Assembly (NCBI GenBank): GCA_002787775.1
Contig: PCUW01000002.1
Location: 60,498 to 124,497 of the forward strand
DNA: 64,000 nucleotides
Direction of reading: 5' to 3'
Origin: Bdellovibrionales bacterium CG12_big_fil_rev_8_21_14_0_65_38_15
GTDB taxonomy: Bacteria > Bdellovibrionota > Bacteriovoracia > Bacteriovoracales > Bacteriovoracaceae
The notes under the pieces were generated by a model, which saw only the letters and a list, made by a program, of their open reading frames with translations, had not been told where the DNA came from and did no database searches. This document shows positions 9,031 through 19,199 of the stretch, in pieces. The position numbers were made by a program, and so were the translations under genes. The number at the start of each line of letters is the position of its first letter. The stretch's first letter is position 1.

Positions 9031-10128
9031 ATGAATAAAGAAGAGCTAACACAGATCGTTGATGGTTTGTCACATAATTTAGATCTTATGATCAACCAAA
9101 GCCCATCGTGCCTGAAAATTATTTCAGCAAATGGTGAGCTGATCATGATGAATAAGACTGGTCTCGATTTAATTGAAGCTGAGGATATGGAAAGCGTCTT
9201 TGGTGCAGATGTTTACTTAATAGTCGAAGAAAGTCATCGCGAAAAATTTAAAAAATTTAATGAAGAGATTTGTAATGGAAAGAGTGGGCGATTAACTTTT
9301 GAAATTATTGGACTTAAGGGAACACACCGATGGATGGAGACTCATGCTTCTCCCTATATGCTGCCAAATGGTAAAATTGCCCATATCTCTATCACTAACG
9401 ATATAACAGAACTAAAAATTAAAAGAGATATTGAAGAGATTATCACTGACATAAGACAGAAATATATTGAATCCTATGATAAGCCTTTCTTATTTTTTAA
9501 TGAAGTGTTGAAGAATGTTCTCAATTGTATGAAAGCTGAATTTGGATATTTGGCTGAAGTTGTTTATGACAAAGAAAAACCATATTTAAGATCTTACGCC
9601 CTTTCTAATATCTCTTGGAATACAGAAATACGTAAATATTACGAAGAAAATAAAGAAAAAGGCTTAGTTTTTGAAGACTTAGATACTTTGTATGGTGAAG
9701 TTCTTAAAACAAAAAAAGTCTTTATTAGCAATGATGCAATAAATGATAAAAAAGCGAAAGGAGTACCAGTCGGTCATCCTGCTTTAAAATCTTTTTTAAG
9801 TGTACCTTTGTTTCACGCAGGTGAATTAGTCGCAACCTTTGGGATTGCCAACAGAATCGGGGGTTTTAGTTCTGACCTTGTAGATTTTTATCAGCCTCTA
9901 ATTCAATGTATTGGGGAGCTTGTAGGACTTCTCCAGTTGCAAAAGAAAAATAATGAATCAGAAAAAAAGCTTAAAGAACTCAATAACTACCTAGATCTTG
10001 CCCTGGAGGGTTCTAATCTTGGCGTATGGGAATGGAAGATACCAGAAAATACAGTTCGATATGATAAGCGTTGGGCCGAAATGATTGGATTTAAGGTCGA
10101 AGAAATACAACATACTTTTGAATTTTGA
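9031..10128 (+). CDS. Hybrid histidine kinase, N-terminal part (PAS-GAF-PAS), cut by TGA
   Basis: This 365-aa ORF is the sensory half of a hybrid kinase. It has a first PAS domain (about residues 10-130, ending HISITNDITELK), a GAF domain (about 150-300, with FLSVPLFHAGELVATFGIANR) and the first half of a second PAS domain (from about 320, LEGSNLGVWEWK). It stops at TGA in the middle of this PAS domain. The same frame then continues open without another stop into the kinase ORF at 10324. No transmembrane segment is visible, so the sensor would be cytoplasmic. Without the kinase half it can only bind ligand or a partner. Read as the 5' part of one broken gene; see the stop-codon entry. Confidence 0.7.
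   Translation: MNKEELTQIVDGLSHNLDLMINQSPSCLKIISANGELIMMNKTGLDLIEAEDMESVFGADVYLIVEESHREKFKKFNEEICNGKSGRLTFEIIGLKGTHRWMETHASPYMLPNGKIAHISITNDITELKIKRDIEEIITDIRQKYIESYDKPFLFFNEVLKNVLNCMKAEFGYLAEVVYDKEKPYLRSYALSNISWNTEIRKYYEENKEKGLVFEDLDTLYGEVLKTKKVFISNDAINDKKAKGVPVGHPALKSFLSVPLFHAGELVATFGIANRIGGFSSDLVDFYQPLIQCIGELVGLLQLQKKNNESEKKLKELNNYLDLALEGSNLGVWEWKIPENTVRYDKRWAEMIGFKVEEIQHTFEF
10126..10128 (+). other. In-frame TGA interrupting the hybrid kinase
   Basis: The TGA sits where PAS domains usually have Trp just before the HPDD segment: the frame reads HTFEF-stop-QSRLHPDDVDR. A single G-to-A change from TGG would give it. The frame continues as a normal PAS domain (KHANGEWIYILASAKF) up to the ORF-track start at 10324. 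Real nonsense mutation, readthrough and sequencing error cannot be told apart here. Confidence 0.85.
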
Positions 10129-10323
10129 CAATCAAGGCTTCATCCAGATGATGTCGATCGAACGTCTAAAGTTATTGATGATTATATTCAAGGAAAAACA
10201 AAACAATTTATTAATCCACACCGTCTAAAGCATGCAAATGGAGAATGGATCTATATTTTAGCGTCTGCTAAGTTTTCTGACTGGGGTGAAGATGGAAAGC
10301 CTATACGACTTACCGGCACCCAT

Positions 10324-11514
10324 ATGGATATTACCCAACAAAAAATTCAAGAGCTTGAGTTGATTGATGCTAGAAATAAAGCACTTCTAGCTGAAAAGGC
10401 GAAAACTTTATTTCTCGCCAATATGTCACATGAAATCAGAACTCCAATGAATGGTGTTATTGGAATGCTCGATTTATTAAATGAAACTAATCTTAATGAT
10501 GAACAGCGCGACATGATATCGACGATTCAGTATTGCGGCGACAGTTTAATGACAATCTTAAATGATATTCTTGATTTGACGAAAATCGAATCAGGAAAAC
10601 TTCATCTTGAAAATTTAGAATTTGATTTATTAAAACTTATTAGCGAAGTCATTTCTCTGTTCGATGCTGAGTGTGCGAAAAAAGGTATTACGTTGAAATT
10701 CATCAACGCGCTATCTCATCATCTCTTTATTGGTGATGTGACACGAATAAAGCAGGTTCTTATCAATCTTGTATCAAATGCGGTGAAATTTACAAGAAAA
10801 GGAAAAGTAGAAGTAGAAGTTATCGTTAACTCTAAAGCTCTTTCTCCTCAAAAGATGGAAGTTGAAATAACAGTTCGAGATACTGGGATTGGAATCTCAA
10901 AAGATGTGCAAAGAAAACTTTTTAATGACTTTATGCAAGCAGACGATTCTATAACGAGAGAGTTTGGTGGCACTGGACTGGGTCTTTCAATCTCAAAAAG
11001 ACTGGTACATTTAATGAAAGGAACAATCCATGTTTCTAGTGTTTTAGACACTGGCAGTGAATTTGTAGTTAATTTCCCTTTAAATTTAGCAAATAAACTT
11101 GATGCTAAATCTAAAATACAAGTTTTTGATGGTCGAGATCACCAATCATTGAAAATTTTAGTTGTTGAAGATAATGATATTAACTGTAAATTGATTCACG
11201 CGATGATGGATAAATTATATATCAATCATGATATTGTTCATGATGGAAAAGAAGCTGTAAGAATTATTGGAACAGACAATCCGTTAAATTACAATGTTAT
11301 CTTTATGGATCTTCAAATGCCGATAATGGATGGTTACGAAGCTTCGAAAAATATTTTTAATTATTGCCTAGTCAATTGTCCCAAAATTGTTCCTACCACA
11401 GCTAATGTTTTTGATGACGAACGTGTAAAGTGTAAGGCGTTGGGAATGTTTGATTTTCTACCAAAGCCTATAACTGTTCGTTCTTTAAGTGATCTTTTAC
11501 ATCGACTGACTTAA
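10324..11514 (+). CDS. Hybrid histidine kinase, C-terminal part (HisKA-HATPase-REC)
   Basis: This 396-aa ORF holds the catalytic half of the kinase. The phosphoacceptor H-box is NMSHEIRTPMNG with His at about residue 36 (about 467 of the uninterrupted gene). The N-box is INLVSNAVKF, the G-boxes are DTGIGIS and GGTGLGLSIS, and a C-terminal receiver domain has acidic VVEDND, phosphoacceptor Asp in FMDLQMP (about 329) and Lys in LPKPIT. All catalytic residues are intact, so the decay is recent or only apparent. No ribosome binding site precedes the ATG at 10324, so independent translation is doubtful. The coding frame extends back to the TGA at 10126. The gene ends 8 bp from the convergent cyclase. 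Confidence 0.75.
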   Translation: MDITQQKIQELELIDARNKALLAEKAKTLFLANMSHEIRTPMNGVIGMLDLLNETNLNDEQRDMISTIQYCGDSLMTILNDILDLTKIESGKLHLENLEFDLLKLISEVISLFDAECAKKGITLKFINALSHHLFIGDVTRIKQVLINLVSNAVKFTRKGKVEVEVIVNSKALSPQKMEVEITVRDTGIGISKDVQRKLFNDFMQADDSITREFGGTGLGLSISKRLVHLMKGTIHVSSVLDTGSEFVVNFPLNLANKLDAKSKIQVFDGRDHQSLKILVVEDNDINCKLIHAMMDKLYINHDIVHDGKEAVRIIGTDNPLNYNVIFMDLQMPIMDGYEASKNIFNYCLVNCPKIVPTTANVFDDERVKCKALGMFDFLPKPITVRSLSDLLHRLT

Positions 11515-11522
11515 AAAAAAAA

Positions 11523-13769
11523 TTATTTTGAGGTTAACGTATAAACTCCATCCCATTCTGGTGGGGGAGGTAGTTCTTTAAACTCTTGACATCTTTTAAT
11601 ATAAATTTCAGATGGGTTTGTTTTCTTTCCTTTTAGTTCTGGAAAACGCTGCCATTCTAGCTCTAATGTTTCTGTAAAAATGGTGATGGCTTCATCAAAT
11701 TTTTGAGATTTATAGGCTGTAATTCCTTGCTTGAATTTATACGCCAGATCTTTGAGGTATTCTGGAGCATCTTTTTGCGTATAGAGCAGATCAAATGTTG
11801 TCACTGGAACTGATTTTCCAACCACTTTAATCGTATCAAGCTCACGATATAAGAACTCATCACCAGCCAGCTTAACTGTCTCTCCGGCAATTTGAGTAAA
11901 GATACTATATTGTTTCGCTGATTCTTCTAGACGAGCGGCGAGGTTCACAGAATCGCCCATCATGGTGTAATTCATTCGCTGAGCTGAGCCCATATTTCCA
12001 GTAACAATCTCTCCAGAATTTAGGCCAATTCTCATGCGCATCTCATGCACGATCTTGGGCCATTTTTCTCCTTCAGATGTCCATTTTTTACGAAGTTCAC
12101 CAAGAGCTACTTGCATACGATGGGCAACCATACAGCCGCGGTAGGCATGATCTTCAAGTGGCATAGGTGCACCGAAAAAGGCGATGATAGCATCACCCTC
12201 ATACTTATCAAGAGTACCTTTTTCTTCAAGCAAGATATCAGTCATGACAGTGAGGTATTCGTTTAGAAGTTCAACCAGCTGAGTGGCAGAGAGTTGCTCT
12301 GAAAAGGTTGAAAACCCTTGAATGTCAGTAAACAGCGCTGTTCTAATACCGCAGTCTCCACCAAGCTTTGGAGGCTCTCCAGAGGCATACATATCATCAA
12401 TAAGTTCAGGTGAAATATAAGTACTGAAGGCACTCTTTAAAAAGGCTTTGTCTTTATTGGCAAGATAGAAGTTTAAAAATGTTGTCCACGAATAACAAGC
12501 CACGACTGACAAGAGAATGAAGAACATCCCGACTTCATAACCATTAGGTAAGAAGTATTTAAGATCTATATAATAAACACTGGCGCAAATAATAATTAAG
12601 GCAGCAACATCTAAAAGAGCATTTTTAAAAAGCTGAACTAAAAGAATTAAGAGCGTACACACCGTCAGCATAATCCACGTTACATTCATGGACTCTGATT
12701 GTGGTTTGTAGGCTTTACCGGTTAAAAGTTGGTTAACAACGTTCATATGAGTATAAATACCAGGTGTCTGAGGATTAATTGGAGTATGTCTTAGATCGTG
12801 AGCACCATAGGCCGTCGATGCTACAAAGATAATATTATCTTTTAACGTAAAGAGCATTCTTTGATCATCATCTGGTGCATTTAAAATATCTTTGATACTG
12901 ACTCGTTGAAACTGGGATTCATCTCCAAGCCAGCTAATTTTAAGAGCGCCTTTTGAGTTCACTGGAAATTCAATATTGTTAGCGATTAATCGACTGCCGT
13001 CGCCCTCTTGGACGACTAGTTTTGTTTTTTCACCGGTGAAGGCCTCATAGATAGAAACAGAGAAGCTGGGAAAATATATATCATCAACGTTTGATACAAC
13101 AAAGTAATGTCTAAAAACGCCATCAATGTCAGCGGTAGCTTGAATATGGCCAAGAAGTGGATTCGAGTTAATGATGGTATCAATTGGCCAAACCTCTTTT
13201 GAAACATGGTGCTTGTTGAGGTTGTAGCCACCTGCGGCCTGAGAATCCATAATAAAGTTATAAAGTGAATCTGGAAGTTCCTCAAAAGAGTTCTCTTTTG
13301 GAATCTCATTTACATCCATTGAATAAGGAATGATGACGTGATGGCCTTCTTTGCTTTGAAATTCTTCAATCGATCTGGCAAGCGCTATATCTGGAGACTC
13401 TACATTACAAGCAACTTCATCTTCAGGAAAGAATACGTCGAAGGCGACAACTTTTGCGCCATAGATATTCATTTTTCTCATGAACTCGGCCCAGCGAACC
13501 CTTGTCCAAGGCCATCTTCCTATCGCTTGCAAAGATTCATCATCAATGGCGGCGAGGACAATTTTAGGCTGTTTAGCTTCTTTATCTAGAATACTCCTCA
13601 TTCGAAGGTCGTAAAAACGATCTTCGAGATAGGAGGCGTAAATTGGTGGTTTATCTACTTCAATTTGTTGGGCCGAAAGCTCTCGACTGATTTGATGCAT
13701 GACCGTCGAGAAAATACAAAAGACTAGAATTAGAAAGATACCGCCAAATTTAAGAACTTTTGAAAACAT
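11523..13769 (-). CDS. CHASE2-domain class III adenylate/guanylate cyclase
   Basis: This is a 748-aa membrane cyclase. After an N-terminal membrane segment comes an extracytoplasmic CHASE2 sensor domain (about residues 35-350; IVLAAIDDESLQAIGRWPW and AKVVAFDVFF are typical). About three transmembrane helices follow (about 355-440), then a class III nucleotidyl cyclase domain (about 475-660). The metal-binding aspartates are in FTDIQGF and KYEGDAIIAFFGAP, and MGDSVNLAARLE carries the conserved Asn/Arg segment. A TPR-like tail follows. The enzyme should make cAMP or cGMP in the cytoplasm in response to an envelope signal. It is the last gene of an operon with the TPR-barrel gene (8 bp gap) and the FecR-domain gene. 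Substrate specificity (ATP versus GTP) was not decided. Confidence 0.9.
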   Translation of the reverse strand: MFSKVLKFGGIFLILVFCIFSTVMHQISRELSAQQIEVDKPPIYASYLEDRFYDLRMRSILDKEAKQPKIVLAAIDDESLQAIGRWPWTRVRWAEFMRKMNIYGAKVVAFDVFFPEDEVACNVESPDIALARSIEEFQSKEGHHVIIPYSMDVNEIPKENSFEELPDSLYNFIMDSQAAGGYNLNKHHVSKEVWPIDTIINSNPLLGHIQATADIDGVFRHYFVVSNVDDIYFPSFSVSIYEAFTGEKTKLVVQEGDGSRLIANNIEFPVNSKGALKISWLGDESQFQRVSIKDILNAPDDDQRMLFTLKDNIIFVASTAYGAHDLRHTPINPQTPGIYTHMNVVNQLLTGKAYKPQSESMNVTWIMLTVCTLLILLVQLFKNALLDVAALIIICASVYYIDLKYFLPNGYEVGMFFILLSVVACYSWTTFLNFYLANKDKAFLKSAFSTYISPELIDDMYASGEPPKLGGDCGIRTALFTDIQGFSTFSEQLSATQLVELLNEYLTVMTDILLEEKGTLDKYEGDAIIAFFGAPMPLEDHAYRGCMVAHRMQVALGELRKKWTSEGEKWPKIVHEMRMRIGLNSGEIVTGNMGSAQRMNYTMMGDSVNLAARLEESAKQYSIFTQIAGETVKLAGDEFLYRELDTIKVVGKSVPVTTFDLLYTQKDAPEYLKDLAYKFKQGITAYKSQKFDEAITIFTETLELEWQRFPELKGKKTNPSEIYIKRCQEFKELPPPPEWDGVYTLTSK

Positions 13770-13777
13770 TAAAGCTC

Positions 13778-15361
13778 CTAATACTTAATTCTAAATCTTA
13801 TGCCTGCGACATGTTTGGTGTATTCATATCGAAGCGTATCGTTGGACATATTTTTAGTGTAGTCGTAAGTCAATTGCATTGAAACGTAGTCATTAATCTT
13901 CTTGATAAGTTTAAAAGAAGGATTAATTGTTTTTTCTGTACCACGTGTTTCAGATTGAAGTTTGGTATCTAGGATTGTTAAACCCAAACCAGCAGAAAGA
14001 GTGAAGTTAGAGATAAAATTAGGTCTTAGGTGATCAACGCGAAATAAGAACGCATTAGTTGAATTAAGTTCGGTCTCGGCACTTATAAAGTCAGCATTTA
14101 CCAAAGCAATAAATAGCGTTCCAGTAGAAGTCACAATAATTTGATCTGCAGCTAATGTTATTGTTTTGTTATTTTGTGCTTCTGTGAAGGCTTGATAATC
14201 TTTAATTTTAAATCGAAGAGTGGTATCGCCATAAGTATTAAGTTTTAGAGTTTCAAAAAAAGAGATAGTTGTTGATCGGGCAAAGAGGATCTTCTGCTTT
14301 TGTTGTAAACGATCGCGAGCAATATACTTATAGTCAAAGCCAACTCCAAATGTGGCTGGCTTTTCTTTGAATGTATGTTCTCTTTTAAAAACGGTACTCG
14401 CAGTAATGTCATAGGAATCATTTTGAAATACTGTTGGCTCGGATGTCTCTGCGTACTTTTTGTTATTAATCCTTAGTGATGGTTCGATTAGGTACTTTCC
14501 TTTAAAGGCTGCCAAGTATTTAGCATTAAAGGTTGAATCAAAAATATAAGATTCTTTTTGAGTTGCCGCTGCTGTTGGAACATCGGTAGCTAACGTCACA
14601 TTGTTATCGTAGTTTACTTCTTGTTGAAAACTAATGTCCCATCTTTGTTCAGGAATTAACTTTCCATTGATTAAGCGATTTGGATCAAGTCCATAACGAA
14701 CTTGAATTTCTTTAATACGTGTTTCAATTTCAGGAGCAATATCACTTTTCTCATTTGATTTTCGAGCTTGCTCCATTTGAGGAAGAACGTAAGACTCAAC
14801 CAGTCTATTAGCGTCGTCTCGTGATTCGGCCATAGAGAGTAGTACTTCTCCTAGCTGAAAGCGAGAAACTTGAACGAGGTCTTTATCTGTCTGCGGATGT
14901 TTTCCAAGTTTAATATAATAATCTCTGGCCGATTGATAATCCTCAAGAATCTGAGAGATATGGGCCATATAATAAAGTGACTCTGTTTCTTTATACTTTA
15001 ATGAATATGATTTCTTAAAAGACTGCAGGGACATTCTAAGATCACTGTTGGCATAAGAGGCTTGGCCAAATTCATACCAAATATCAGGAGCATCACTTTT
15101 TAATTGAATCGCGCGCCTTAAGGCGAGTCCTGCTTTTTCATAATTTTGTAATTTGTTATAGGCGATACCTAAAAGATAAAACTTTGTGGCAATTTGTTTT
15201 TGGTTTGGCTTAAATTTTTCAAGACTTTCAACCATCGTTTGATAAGAACCTAACTTATAATTTGTAATTGCATCAGTGAGTACATCAGCTCTTGCTGGCA
15301 GCTGAAAACAAAGACTCAGCAACATCAAGGCCAAGAATGATGGTTGTTTATTGAACGTCAT
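13778..15361 (-). CDS. TPR-repeat protein with C-terminal outer-membrane beta-barrel
   Basis: This 527-aa protein has a signal peptide (MTFNKQPSFLALMLLSLCFQLPARA). Four to five TPR-like helical repeats follow (about residues 40-200; AGLALRRAIQLKSDAPDIWYEFGQASYAN and similar). The second half is a run of alternating amphipathic beta strands ending in an aromatic residue (AGIRFRIKY), the usual end of an outer-membrane barrel. Periplasmic TPR plus a barrel is the plan of Slam/DUF560, PgaA and BcsC-type exporters, but I cannot place it in any one of them. It lies between the FecR-domain gene (about 90 bp upstream) and the CHASE2 cyclase (8 bp downstream), so it probably shares their envelope-sensing role. 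Confidence 0.7.
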   Translation of the reverse strand: MTFNKQPSFLALMLLSLCFQLPARADVLTDAITNYKLGSYQTMVESLEKFKPNQKQIATKFYLLGIAYNKLQNYEKAGLALRRAIQLKSDAPDIWYEFGQASYANSDLRMSLQSFKKSYSLKYKETESLYYMAHISQILEDYQSARDYYIKLGKHPQTDKDLVQVSRFQLGEVLLSMAESRDDANRLVESYVLPQMEQARKSNEKSDIAPEIETRIKEIQVRYGLDPNRLINGKLIPEQRWDISFQQEVNYDNNVTLATDVPTAAATQKESYIFDSTFNAKYLAAFKGKYLIEPSLRINNKKYAETSEPTVFQNDSYDITASTVFKREHTFKEKPATFGVGFDYKYIARDRLQQKQKILFARSTTISFFETLKLNTYGDTTLRFKIKDYQAFTEAQNNKTITLAADQIIVTSTGTLFIALVNADFISAETELNSTNAFLFRVDHLRPNFISNFTLSAGLGLTILDTKLQSETRGTEKTINPSFKLIKKINDYVSMQLTYDYTKNMSNDTLRYEYTKHVAGIRFRIKY

Positions 15362-15450
15362 CGCAAATCCGTTTGCTATAGTAGGTTATTTTCTAATAAT
15401 CCTATATATTTTAAGATGATATGCGATTTATTACTAGGGAGAATCAGTCT

Positions 15451-16767
15451 TTATTGGACATTAAGATTAAAGTTGACCGTTGAGGTTGAGTTACTCAGTC
15501 CCAGGTCCTGGTTATCAGTAATAGTTTCTTGTGCATCTACCAATAGCTCTCCACCAGTTTCAAGTAATTGAGCTTCTTCTTGTGTTTGAGCTACAGCCAC
15601 AGTTGGACCTGCAAGCAGTGGGTTGCCAGCTGGGGCACCACCGACTGAGGCAGGGGAGCGAGCTGCTGTTTGAGTTTGAATGGCGACTTGATTCGCTGTA
15701 TTTAGCGATACCACGACAGTATCAATTGATTTTGCCGCTTCCATATTAACCACTCCTGTATTTGATAAAACACTCGAAGCACCAGTTAGAATTGGAAGAC
15801 CAGTGTTTGTATCAATCGGAGCATTCTTTGGAGGTAGTAGTAAGTTACCTGTTGCTACATCGACGACCGCACCTGCAGCTGCCGTATTTGTTATTTTCGT
15901 TGGAGCAAAACCATTTTTAACAGTGTTGGCAGCCGCAGTTGCTTTATTCACAACTGTTTGACCTGATGACTTAGCCACTTGGCTTTCAACTTTTGCTTTA
16001 TTAGAAAACTTTTGACCGTTAACCCCTGGTGGAACAATCGATTTAACTGGTTTTACAGCGGCACTAGATTCACTAGGCTCTTCTGCAGAACCAGACTGAT
16101 TTTTTTCCATATTTTCTAATTGCATTGGATTAATTTTAACTGGAATCGTTGCAGTACCAGTTTCAGGAGATGAACCAGAAAATTGTCCACGAGTCACGGT
16201 AACAGCTTGATCAGACGATACAATTCTTTCAAGTCGAGTTTGATCAAAGAGATCAGCAGATTTACCAAAAGAGGTAAGGGACGCCATCGCAACAGCACCT
16301 TCAAAAGTTACTAGAGATGTAAAGTCATTAGACGGATTATAGTCAACTTGAAAATCTGTACCACGAACACCCATGGCTGCTGTTTTTGTTTTAATGAATA
16401 GTTTGGATTTATCTTTCTTATCCATTTCCATATAGTTCTTGGAAACTTTTGATCTAAGCTGACCCTTTACAAGGGTCACAATTCCAGGATCGTTCTCTGG
16501 GAACTTATCAATTTTCATTTGAGAATTTGGACCTAAATTCATTTGAGATTTATCGATGAAAAGAAGTTTTACGAAACTTTTATCAGCTGTTTTAACCTGA
16601 GTTCCTTCTTTGAACCACATGCCCTGTTTCGCTTCAACGACTTTGCCATCAGGCATTTGTGCCATGGCCTTGCCTCTTACAACAATCGCCTTTGCAACGT
16701 CACCAGCGCCAGCAAAGGCGAAAGATGACATTGAGATCAATACAGATAGAAGAATTTTAAGCATCAT
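15451..16767 (-). CDS. Exported FecR-domain protein
   Basis: This 438-aa protein has a signal peptide (MMLKILLSVLISMSSFAFA) and a FecR domain at about residues 25-165. Visible FecR features are the SH3-like opening (VRGKAMAQMPDG), TADKSFVKLLFIDKSQMNLGPNS and KTKTAAMGVRGTDFQV. The rest (about 180-438) is low complexity, rich in Ala, Thr, Val, Asn and Gln. It lacks an N-terminal anti-sigma segment or transmembrane helix, so it is the secreted FecR type, probably a surface or periplasmic carbohydrate- or peptidoglycan-binding module. I moved the start from 16809 to the ATG at 16765-16767 because AAGGA lies 8 nt upstream and the signal peptide begins there. First gene of the FecR/TPR-barrel/CHASE2-cyclase operon. 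Confidence 0.8.
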   Translation of the reverse strand: MMLKILLSVLISMSSFAFAGAGDVAKAIVVRGKAMAQMPDGKVVEAKQGMWFKEGTQVKTADKSFVKLLFIDKSQMNLGPNSQMKIDKFPENDPGIVTLVKGQLRSKVSKNYMEMDKKDKSKLFIKTKTAAMGVRGTDFQVDYNPSNDFTSLVTFEGAVAMASLTSFGKSADLFDQTRLERIVSSDQAVTVTRGQFSGSSPETGTATIPVKINPMQLENMEKNQSGSAEEPSESSAAVKPVKSIVPPGVNGQKFSNKAKVESQVAKSSGQTVVNKATAAANTVKNGFAPTKITNTAAAGAVVDVATGNLLLPPKNAPIDTNTGLPILTGASSVLSNTGVVNMEAAKSIDTVVVSLNTANQVAIQTQTAARSPASVGGAPAGNPLLAGPTVAVAQTQEEAQLLETGGELLVDAQETITDNQDLGLSNSTSTVNFNLNVQ

Positions 16768-16776
16768 AGTTGTAGT

Positions 16777-16799
16777 CCTTAAACTTAATTCACTTAAGG
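16777..16799 (-). promoter_or_regulatory. Inverted repeat covering the FecR-gene ribosome binding site
   Basis: In mRNA sense, CCTTAA pairs with TTAAGG across an 11-nt loop. The second arm includes the AAGGA ribosome binding site of the FecR-domain gene, so the hairpin could mask translation starts. The stem is short (6 bp, AT-rich), so the effect is speculative. Confidence 0.3.
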
Positions 16800-16915
16800 T
16801 TATCGACATTTTAGAGTCGAACTTGATGAAATAGGCTAAGTCCTAGAAAAGACGTAAAATGGGGTTTTTCTTTTTTAAAAACCGACAACTTTTGTTGCTT
16901 TGGTTGGCTAAGTGA

Positions 16916-17593
16916 TTAAAAGAACACGATTCCAAAGTTAATCATAAAGATGGAGGTGTAGATATTAGTTCGGACCTTATCGGTGTTTAGAGTTTCAACA
17001 TTTTTGAAGTCTGAATTATCTAGTAAAGCGATCTCATAGGCGGTCTGATACGAATATAAAAACTCGATAAAGGTAGGTTTTAAGTATTTAGTCGCTAAAC
17101 CTTCTTCAAATCCAAGAGCAACCAGCCAGCCTCGTGATGTATAGGAGTAGCGGTACTCTTCTTTGTATGCCCCACTTTCGATCGTAAAGTCCTCGAGCTT
17201 AAAGGTATTTAAGGACCAAACGGGGCCGACGGACAAATAGCATTTCCAATTTCCATTTTCTTTCACATCGAAGTAGTAGCGAGCTGTTGGAGCAAAGTTG
17301 ACGTGATTAAAACTACCTTCACCTTGCACTCGAGTATTACCAATTTGGTAAGTCAGTTTTTCCATTTCACCGAAAGCGATGAAAGAAGTGAGGTTAAATT
17401 CCCAGCGCTTAAATTTATAGCCAAAGTTTGTATTAAAACCAATCCCCAGAGCATTGTCTTGGCTGTGATCAATATACTTAAGATGACTAAAAGCCGTCGA
17501 GAAGCCACCTTTTAAAGCGAACTCATTTTCGTAAGCAAAAACAAACGTTGAGTTCAATAGCGTTAGAATAAAGAGTAGAAGTTTAGAATTCAT
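16916..17593 (-). CDS. Putative outer-membrane beta-barrel protein
   Basis: This 225-aa protein has a signal peptide (MNSKLLLFILTLLNSTFVFA). The mature part consists of alternating polar/hydrophobic beta strands with many aromatic residues, ending SIFMINFGIVFF with a terminal Phe, as in small 8-12 strand outer-membrane barrels. No named family is recognised. Its ATG overlaps the end of the upstream DUF3943-like gene by 11 bp, so the two are translationally coupled and probably work together in the envelope. Confidence 0.7.
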   Translation of the reverse strand: MNSKLLLFILTLLNSTFVFAYENEFALKGGFSTAFSHLKYIDHSQDNALGIGFNTNFGYKFKRWEFNLTSFIAFGEMEKLTYQIGNTRVQGEGSFNHVNFAPTARYYFDVKENGNWKCYLSVGPVWSLNTFKLEDFTIESGAYKEEYRYSYTSRGWLVALGFEEGLATKYLKPTFIEFLYSYQTAYEIALLDNSDFKNVETLNTDKVRTNIYTSIFMINFGIVFF

Positions 17594-18227
17594 AAATGAA
17601 TGTCACTCCCGCCCCGCCCTTACCATCAAGGCTTGGAACTGTTCTAACTTTACCTTCAAAAAATCCAAACATCGTTGAAGGGTTTAATGTGTGGCCTAAA
17701 AATTTTGCTATTGGATGATTTGTATTAAGCAGCCAAAGGCTGAGGTTCTCAATACCATAACCTAAAATACTGCCTAGAATCGGTGTCTGATAGAGGTCTT
17801 GAATACTGGCAGGCTCTGTATAAACTTCGACCGTGAATTCAAACAACGTACTTGAAATAAAAGTCAGTCCAACAGAATCGATTCGGTTGTAACCATTGGC
17901 TCGGTAGTAAAGATAAAGTTGGCTACCTGAAATAGGGTGAACTAACCAATTCCAAAAAGGAGTGTCACGATCAAAAACTACCTCTCCAAAATTATTGCCA
18001 TAATTTTTAAAGCTTCCATTGTCTTTAAAAACTGTAGGCTGAGTCAAAGGGTAGAGCGCCCATGAGGCAGCGTAAATAATCCCTAAATGTTTCCATGTTT
18101 CTGATTTTTCGTGATTTCTATCGATATACTCGTAATGCCACATAGCGTCACGTGTTGGATTACTTTCTTCTCCATGGATAAATCCACTGAAAAGAGAAAA
18201 AACAATCAAAATGCTGATCTTAAGCAT
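17583..18227 (-). CDS. DUF3943-like exported protein
   Basis: This is a 214-aa protein with an N-terminal signal peptide (MLKISILIVFSLFSGFIHG). It carries the pattern I associate with DUF3943 proteins: WNWLVHPISGSQLYLYYRANGY, then a conserved TLFEFTVEVYTEPASIQDL segment and PILGSILGYGIE. These proteins are predicted envelope proteins without a known reaction. The ORF track starts at 18383, which would overlap hemF by 90 bp. I use the ATG at 18225-18227 because the signal peptide begins there. It is coupled to the barrel gene downstream (11-bp overlap) and divergent from hemF (66-bp gap). Confidence 0.65.
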   Translation of the reverse strand: MLKISILIVFSLFSGFIHGEESNPTRDAMWHYEYIDRNHEKSETWKHLGIIYAASWALYPLTQPTVFKDNGSFKNYGNNFGEVVFDRDTPFWNWLVHPISGSQLYLYYRANGYNRIDSVGLTFISSTLFEFTVEVYTEPASIQDLYQTPILGSILGYGIENLSLWLLNTNHPIAKFLGHTLNPSTMFGFFEGKVRTVPSLDGKGGAGVTFIYEF

Positions 18228-18293
18228 GGTTCTATTCAACTGTATTAAGTATAAAAGTAATCGTAGCGCAGTGAGTATCACGTCGAGGTTAAC

Positions 18294-19199
18294 ATGCCAA
18301 TAAATCAACTTGAATCTACTAAGAATGCATTTGCAGATCACGTCAAAAAACTGCAAGACGAAATAACGGCGAAGCTTAAACAATTAGACCCTGAAACTAC
18401 AATGATTGAAGATCTATGGGATCGTCTGGACCATGCAGGACAACCCGGCGGTGGCGGAAGAACTAGAGCGTTTAAAGGTCATATCATCGAAAATGGTGGT
18501 GTTAATTATAGCCAAGTCTTTGGCAAAGTTGATCCTAAGTTTGCAAGCTCCTTAGGCGGTGACAGCGATGAGATGTGGGCCAGTGGCATTTCACTCATCC
18601 TACATCCAAGAAACCCTCGAATTCCAACTGTGCATATGAACTTTAGGATGATTCAAGTTGGAACAAAGTATTGGTTTGGTGGAGGCGCAGATCTGACACC
18701 ATTTTACCCTCACGAAGATGATTTTCGTCACTTCCACGGTGTGTGGAAAGAGGCGACAACAAAATATAATCAATGGGAAGCGATGAAGAAAAAATGTGAC
18801 GAATATTTCGTCAATACTCATCGTCAAAATGAAATGAGAGGGATTGGTGGAATTTTCTTTGATCACTTCAATAGTGGTTCAATCCAAGATGATTTCAATA
18901 TGGCGTGTGATCTTTCAAATCACTTCATTTCTTCTTATTTTCCAATTGCAGGAAAACGTCTAAATGAAGAATTTACACCAGAAGATGAGGATTTCATGCT
19001 TCACAGGCGTGGACGCTACGTAGAGTTCAATCTGCTGCATGATCGTGGAACTTTATTTGGTCTTAAGACCAATGGGCGTATCGACTCTATTTTGATCTCA
19101 TTGCCAGCGCGCTGTAATTATACCTACCAATACGCGCCAAAAGCTGGTTCTGCTCACGAAAAAATGCTGGACTTTTATAGGCCAAACGAATGGGCTTGA
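18294..19199 (+). CDS. hemF: Oxygen-dependent coproporphyrinogen III oxidase
   Basis: This 301-aa enzyme uses O2 to decarboxylate coproporphyrinogen III to protoporphyrinogen IX in haem synthesis, in the cytoplasm. HemF landmarks are QPGGGGRTRAFKG, VHMNFRMIQ, FGGGADLTPFYPHEDDFRHFH, RGIGGIFFDHFNSG, the RRGRYVEFNLLHDRGTLFGL signature and SLPARCNYTY. Length and the C-terminal NEWA match the family. A GAGGT site precedes the ATG. It shares a 66-bp divergent promoter region with the DUF3943-like gene. Presence of this form indicates an aerobic lifestyle. Confidence 0.96.
   Translation: MPINQLESTKNAFADHVKKLQDEITAKLKQLDPETTMIEDLWDRLDHAGQPGGGGRTRAFKGHIIENGGVNYSQVFGKVDPKFASSLGGDSDEMWASGISLILHPRNPRIPTVHMNFRMIQVGTKYWFGGGADLTPFYPHEDDFRHFHGVWKEATTKYNQWEAMKKKCDEYFVNTHRQNEMRGIGGIFFDHFNSGSIQDDFNMACDLSNHFISSYFPIAGKRLNEEFTPEDEDFMLHRRGRYVEFNLLHDRGTLFGLKTNGRIDSILISLPARCNYTYQYAPKAGSAHEKMLDFYRPNEWA

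Follow-up and report, generated by a model that had tools for sequence, protein, structure and literature searches.

What connects an exported FecR-domain protein, an outer-membrane barrel and a membrane-bound cyclase that are encoded side by side? The question is raised by three adjacent genes in the draft genome (3.3 Mb, 68 contigs, 92.7% complete) of Bdellovibrionales bacterium CG12_big_fil_rev_8_21_14_0_65_38_15, a member of the Bacteriovoracaceae [GenBank assembly GCA_002787775.1]. The genes lie in a stretch of 64,000 nt of contig PCUW01000002.1 (positions 60,498 to 124,497), referred to here as the window and numbered from its first nucleotide. The locus probably specifies a relay that carries a signal from the outer to the inner membrane with cyclic AMP (cAMP) as its output, a split, two-protein form of the type known as NsrA-CyaK in Sinorhizobium meliloti. 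This reading rests on the anatomy of the proteins, gene order and its conservation, co-occurrence, the precedent of a fused protein, and adenylate cyclase residues.

FecR and TPR-barrel proteins

15451..16767, minus strand: FecR-domain protein, predicted exported, 438 aa (Pfam FecR match, model and PupR-like fold)
16767, minus strand: ATG start of the FecR protein; an alternative ATG at 16809 would give 452 aa
16291..16599, minus strand: FecR domain, Pfam PF04773 match
13778..15361, minus strand: predicted outer-membrane beta-barrel with an N-terminal periplasmic tetratricopeptide repeat (TPR) domain, 527 aa (TPR matches, AlphaFold2, fold matches in the PDB)
11523..13769, minus strand: predicted CHASE2 sensor and class III adenylate cyclase, 748 aa (Pfam matches and hydrophobic segments)

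The open reading frames (ORFs) agree with the initial annotation of this DNA, which had drawn three consecutive minus-strand genes with the last two 8 bp apart. This is the gap between the barrel and cyclase genes, and 89 bp separate the FecR and barrel genes. No terminator-like sites were found in the gaps between the three genes, though this is a weak test.

The first gene had been described as encoding an exported FecR-domain protein without sigma-factor control parts, and this was borne out. A signal peptide is visible, with no other transmembrane helix, the FecR domain was matched at 7.9e-13, and no anti-sigma or FecR_N domain was detected in the Pfam scan. In the model, a beta domain at aa 23-225 is well folded, and the long linker after it is disordered except for a small ordered patch (aa 297-355). 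The folded domain is closest to the PupR cell-surface signalling domain (4.1e-7, TMt 0.51), with a weaker resemblance to a domain for cell-surface anchoring. The patch (window 15703-15879; predicted local distance difference test (pLDDT) score ∼75-92) carries conserved D-x-x-T-G / PP-x-G motifs.

A FecR domain with a fold matching the PupR/anti-sigma signalling domain would suit a protein that regulates a sigma factor. In classical FecR/PupR cell-surface signalling, a FecR-fold periplasmic domain likewise takes its signal from an outer-membrane barrel. In addition, one Halobacteriovorax locus (L162:4549-8873) has FecR and TPR genes divergent from a CHASE2 cyclase gene and then a gene that, by inspection, is extracytoplasmic function (ECF)-sigma-like. 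However, the FecR protein of the window has neither a cytoplasmic, N-terminal anti-sigma domain nor a transmembrane helix besides the signal peptide. No sigma gene, of ECF type or other, and no TonB-dependent transporter was found among the neighbouring genes scanned, and the output is probably cAMP. Sigma-factor signalling was rejected for these reasons and is very improbable at this locus.

The second protein also has a visible signal peptide. It contains TPR repeats (Pfam, 3e-6), and no Pfam model matches its barrel part. AlphaFold2 (mean pLDDT 89) places TPR helices at aa 27-222 and 14 beta-strands at aa 241-526, in agreement with the periplasmic-TPR outer-membrane barrel of the initial annotation. 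The closest solved folds include BcsC, which also combines TPR and barrel, and OmpG (14 strands, TMt 0.69). A search of plasmids with the TPR-barrel as query recovered nothing like NsrA, so the barrel is lineage-specific in sequence.

An N-terminal TPR domain and a 14-stranded barrel, encoded beside a partner gene, also make up the outer-membrane component of type XI secretion (Slam) (PMC8406197, PMC12282271). The TPR-barrel could accordingly be a Slam-like translocator by which the FecR protein (elsewhere adjoining lipoproteins) is exported or displayed, with the cyclase reading assembly or envelope state. FecR and TPR-barrel genes do travel as a pair, often beside a lipoprotein gene, and the conserved strand at the FecR C-terminus, described below, could act as an export signal. 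Furthermore, FecR partners in Paracoccus and Shinella weakly match the TbpB_B_D/FHBP_C cargo barrels, at sub-threshold scores. However, the TPR-barrel has no PF04575 (SlipAM/DUF560) match at E 0.1, the locus is linked to a cyclase, and the model of the FecR protein shows disorder and a short tail in place of a C-terminal 8-stranded barrel. NsrA carries its FecR and TPR parts on the same chain as the barrel, of which the loops alone are said to be exposed at the surface (PMC7529298, PMC13001267). Membership of type XI secretion was rejected as there is no DUF560 and no cargo barrel, and the earlier suggestion that the barrel exports or displays the FecR protein loses its footing on the same grounds. 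A translocator role is unlikely.

The cyclase is expected to produce cAMP

12648..13631, minus strand: CHASE2 extracytoplasmic sensor domain, aa 47-374 (Pfam)
11805..12341, minus strand: class IIIb adenylate cyclase catalytic domain, aa 477-655 (full-length alignment with Spirulina CyaC)

The third protein matches Pfam CHASE2 (1.8e-46) and Guanylate_cyc (3.1e-22), and hydrophobic segments (aa 1-29 and 359-434) lie one on each side of CHASE2, as expected for the membrane cyclase with a CHASE2 sensor that had been annotated. The alignment with Spirulina CyaC (1wc0/1wc1, 7e-30) spans the length of the catalytic domain. The two metal-binding Asp residues are conserved, as are the Lys and Thr that bind the purine and the Asn and Arg of the transition state; we assume these roles from general knowledge of class III cyclases. 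As all of the adenylate cyclase catalytic residues are present, the enzyme is expected, from its sequence, to convert ATP to cAMP. The product had initially been left as cAMP or cGMP; the residues indicate ATP as the substrate and favour the former, and guanylate cyclase activity was rejected.

Ten matches to cyclic nucleotide (cNMP)-binding domains are present in the genome, including one Crp-like protein with a helix-turn-helix. One cNMP-binding protein (L114) was considered as a Bd1971-like EAL enzyme and ruled out, as it has no EAL domain. The only other CHASE2 protein in the genome is a histidine kinase of 626 aa (contig C58:4175-5074), and almost every genome of the family has CHASE2 matches in frames of comparable size, ∼630 aa.

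Conservation and co-occurrence

Throughout Bacteriovoracia the three genes keep the order FecR, TPR-barrel, cyclase, which recurs in about a dozen genera of the window's family. By cyclase, the closest named relative is Halobacteriovorax sp. SP4097 (70% identity), and the remaining close matches belong to Halobacteriovoraceae and Bacteriovoracaceae. A search of named genomes recovered 75 loci, with both partners adjoining the cyclase in 33, nearly all in the same order. When all loci were deduplicated, the barrel gene was directly upstream of the cyclase gene and on the same strand in 40 (gap range -37 to 37 nt, median 18 nt). In 37 of them a FecR gene in turn directly precedes the barrel gene. 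The same order in 37 non-redundant loci, together with the tight barrel-cyclase gaps, indicates that the arrangement is not due to chance. Conservation of the order in relatives was the check that the initial annotation had named, and this result, with the class IIIb adenylate cyclase residues in the CHASE2 protein, upholds its view of a conserved envelope-to-cyclic-nucleotide module. In a tree of the cyclases, the label 'partner' requires 7 changes, compared with 21.1 in shuffles, a strong clustering of the loci that have partners.

The barrel also tracks the cyclase across genomes, including cases where the two are unlinked. Among 37 genomes of the family, it is present in 28 of the 30 with a CHASE2 cyclase and in about 1 of the 7 without (Fisher p about 8e-5). 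This tally was made by hand, counting a fragment in genome G002 as present, and a copy interrupted by stop codons in G006 and a partial copy in G023 as absent. The G006 copy (G006:C7:18053-18730) is a TPR-barrel gene in a genome without a CHASE2 cyclase, and looks as if it were decaying after loss of its partner.

A conserved C-terminal strand in the FecR protein

15454..15489, minus strand: conserved C-terminal beta-strand tail of the FecR protein, STSTVNFNLNVQ-COOH (comparison of barrel-paired FecR proteins)

A short strand of alternating hydrophobic residues forms the end of 52 of the 57 FecR proteins paired with a TPR-barrel, compared with 13% of other ORFs, although the 52 are not independent events because these FecR proteins are kin. 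The consensus at the extreme C-terminus is [ST][RK]VxF[IN][IF]N[VA]Q. Occupancy is 0.97 in the tail, and the linker that precedes it is poorly conserved (majority fraction 0.29, occupancy 0.75). The strand has no confident model in the FecR single chain. The four small stand-alone FecR proteins that were examined terminate differently; where a barrel is fused C-terminally to FecR, the chain terminates in barrel strands. It is plausible that the strand is a non-covalent tether that substitutes for the fusion seen in NsrA, and it would then dock on either the barrel or the TPR domain.

Single-chain proteins of ∼600-710 aa with FecR and a C-terminal beta-barrel, and without TPR, are found in the same family (L205, L207, L208, L209 and L213). 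L195, on contig C19 of the genome studied here, is also a single chain of FecR and C-terminal barrel.

Comparison with NsrA-CyaK and other CHASE2 cyclase loci

In the NsrA-CyaK-Clr pathway of the plant symbiont S. meliloti, NsrA is the outer-membrane receptor for CyaK; its signal requires CyaK and cAMP, and CyaK-dependent cAMP signalling in turn requires NsrA (PMC7529298, PMC13001267). A domain scan of the NsrA sequence located FecR at 66-160, TPR at ∼417-531 and a C-terminal barrel in one chain, and nsrA runs 1 bp into cyaK, the gene of the CHASE2 cyclase (annotated nsrA-cyaK in CP140934). Both there and in the window, FecR, TPR and an outer-membrane barrel are encoded directly upstream of a CHASE2 class III adenylate cyclase. 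The FecR domains are homologous (hhalign, 5.9e-7), as are the cyclases, with 35% identity over the catalytic part. However, NsrA is one chain of 1197 aa, whereas the window encodes FecR and TPR-barrel as two proteins, with a tail on FecR, and includes two additional genes, for a DUF3943 protein and a 225-aa outer-membrane protein (OMP).

Related arrangements occur elsewhere. In Methylocystis the neighbour of a CHASE2 cyclase is a similar chain with FecR and TPR, and a FecR gene adjoins such a cyclase in Paracoccus, Shinella, Ruegeria and Methyloprofundus. In Campylobacterota, CHASE2 cyclases are clustered with FecR, TPR and phosphodiesterase genes, and a single cAMP pathway has been proposed, without structural or mechanistic detail (PMC9239204, 2022). 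The clustering of the first three is shared with the window, but the Campylobacterota cluster contains a cAMP phosphodiesterase and none was detected by Pfam among the seven window genes scanned at 9031-18383. With NsrA-CyaK and the Campylobacterota clusters already described, the earlier remark that no described pathway has this exact trio does not stand, and the interpretation that it accompanied is partly supported as a whole. The concept is precedented; as far as was found in the literature searched, the split arrangement of Bacteriovoracia, its accessory genes and the tail have no previous description.

Observations against the relay

Several observations weigh against the proposed relay. 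In an hhalign comparison of the window TPR-barrel with NsrA, only the TPR part aligned (E 0.035) and the barrels are not detectably homologous, so the locus would be a variant with a similar mode of action that falls outside the NsrA family. The co-occurrence counts include no correction for kinship or for missing parts of genomes, and incomplete genomes supply most of them. Cyclases without adjacent partners form mainly one other clade of the cyclase tree. Many of the genomes with such cyclases have a FecR/TPR-barrel pair at a separate site, apart from any cyclase and beside lipoprotein or two-component genes, and the pair may therefore serve other outputs.

Among the separate pairs, those at L090-L109 often adjoin large lipoprotein genes or two-component pairs. 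Many of the partner-less cyclase genes adjoin a divergent gene of ∼300 aa, which by inspection we take to be hemF-like.

The three genes could also be co-transcribed and have separate envelope functions, with FecR and TPR-barrel forming a structural or transport pair and the cyclase sensing by other means through CHASE2. The occurrence of the halves apart, as cyclase-only loci and as FecR/TPR-barrel pairs elsewhere, would be expected in that case. However, the presence of the barrel follows that of the cyclase genome-wide, even when unlinked, and other phyla also have FecR or barrel genes beside CHASE2 cyclases, among them fused forms whose pathway is proven. Separate functions are, on this evidence, quite unlikely.

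Accessory and neighbouring genes

16916..17593, minus strand: 225-aa OMP-like protein, predicted exported, accessory module gene (neighbourhood counts)
17583..18383, minus strand: DUF3943 protein, accessory module gene, 266-aa ORF with an uncertain TTG start (PF13084, 3e-26)

The module is larger than initially annotated and includes the DUF3943 and OMP-like genes (16916-18383). The OMP-like family adjoins 26 of 41 loci with the full trio compared with 2 of 61 cyclase-only loci, and the corresponding figures for the DUF3943 gene are 25/41 and 2/61. An ArsC-like gene of 113-118 aa, present at 17 of the 41 trios, was not counted in the module, being probably a neighbour by position alone.

On the plus strand, 9031-11514 contains a PAS/GAF sensor ORF (9031-10128) and a histidine kinase/receiver ORF (10324-11514). 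These resemble a single hybrid kinase gene broken at about 10128, and the intervening sequence appears PAS-like in another frame.

Proposed relay

For the relay, we infer the direction of signalling, the physical contacts and the role of the tail as follows. The TPR-barrel would be the receptor in the outer membrane, and the exported FecR protein would be the periplasmic transmitter, bound non-covalently to the barrel, probably via its conserved C-terminal strand. The long flexible linker would let the FecR domain span the periplasm. Binding of a ligand, or a change in envelope state, would alter how the FecR domain, the TPR domain or both engage the CHASE2 domain, and this would change cAMP synthesis inside the cell. 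The cAMP could then be read by Crp-type or other cNMP-binding proteins. In Bdellovibrio, cAMP acts on c-di-GMP turnover (PMC6717892).

A fuller version can be offered tentatively, as a possibility that may well not hold in all its parts. A soluble FecR transmitter, docked to the TPR-barrel by the conserved C-terminal beta-strand, would take the signal through the entire periplasm on a long disordered tether and switch the CHASE2 adenylate cyclase, so that two proteins held together non-covalently make up the outer-membrane receptor. The DUF3943 and OMP-like genes would complete a five-gene system for envelope sensing in predatory-type bacteria, with the FecR/TPR-barrel cassette reused for other outputs at further sites in these genomes.

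Even for NsrA-CyaK, the most thoroughly studied case, the route by which a signal passes from the outer membrane to an inner-membrane cyclase appears to be open. A naturally split form, conserved in a class with cultivated predators among its members, offers barrel, transmitter and enzyme as individually tractable parts and points to a short strand as the joint. It suggests that surface-derived cAMP signalling belongs to the envelope biology of these bacteria.

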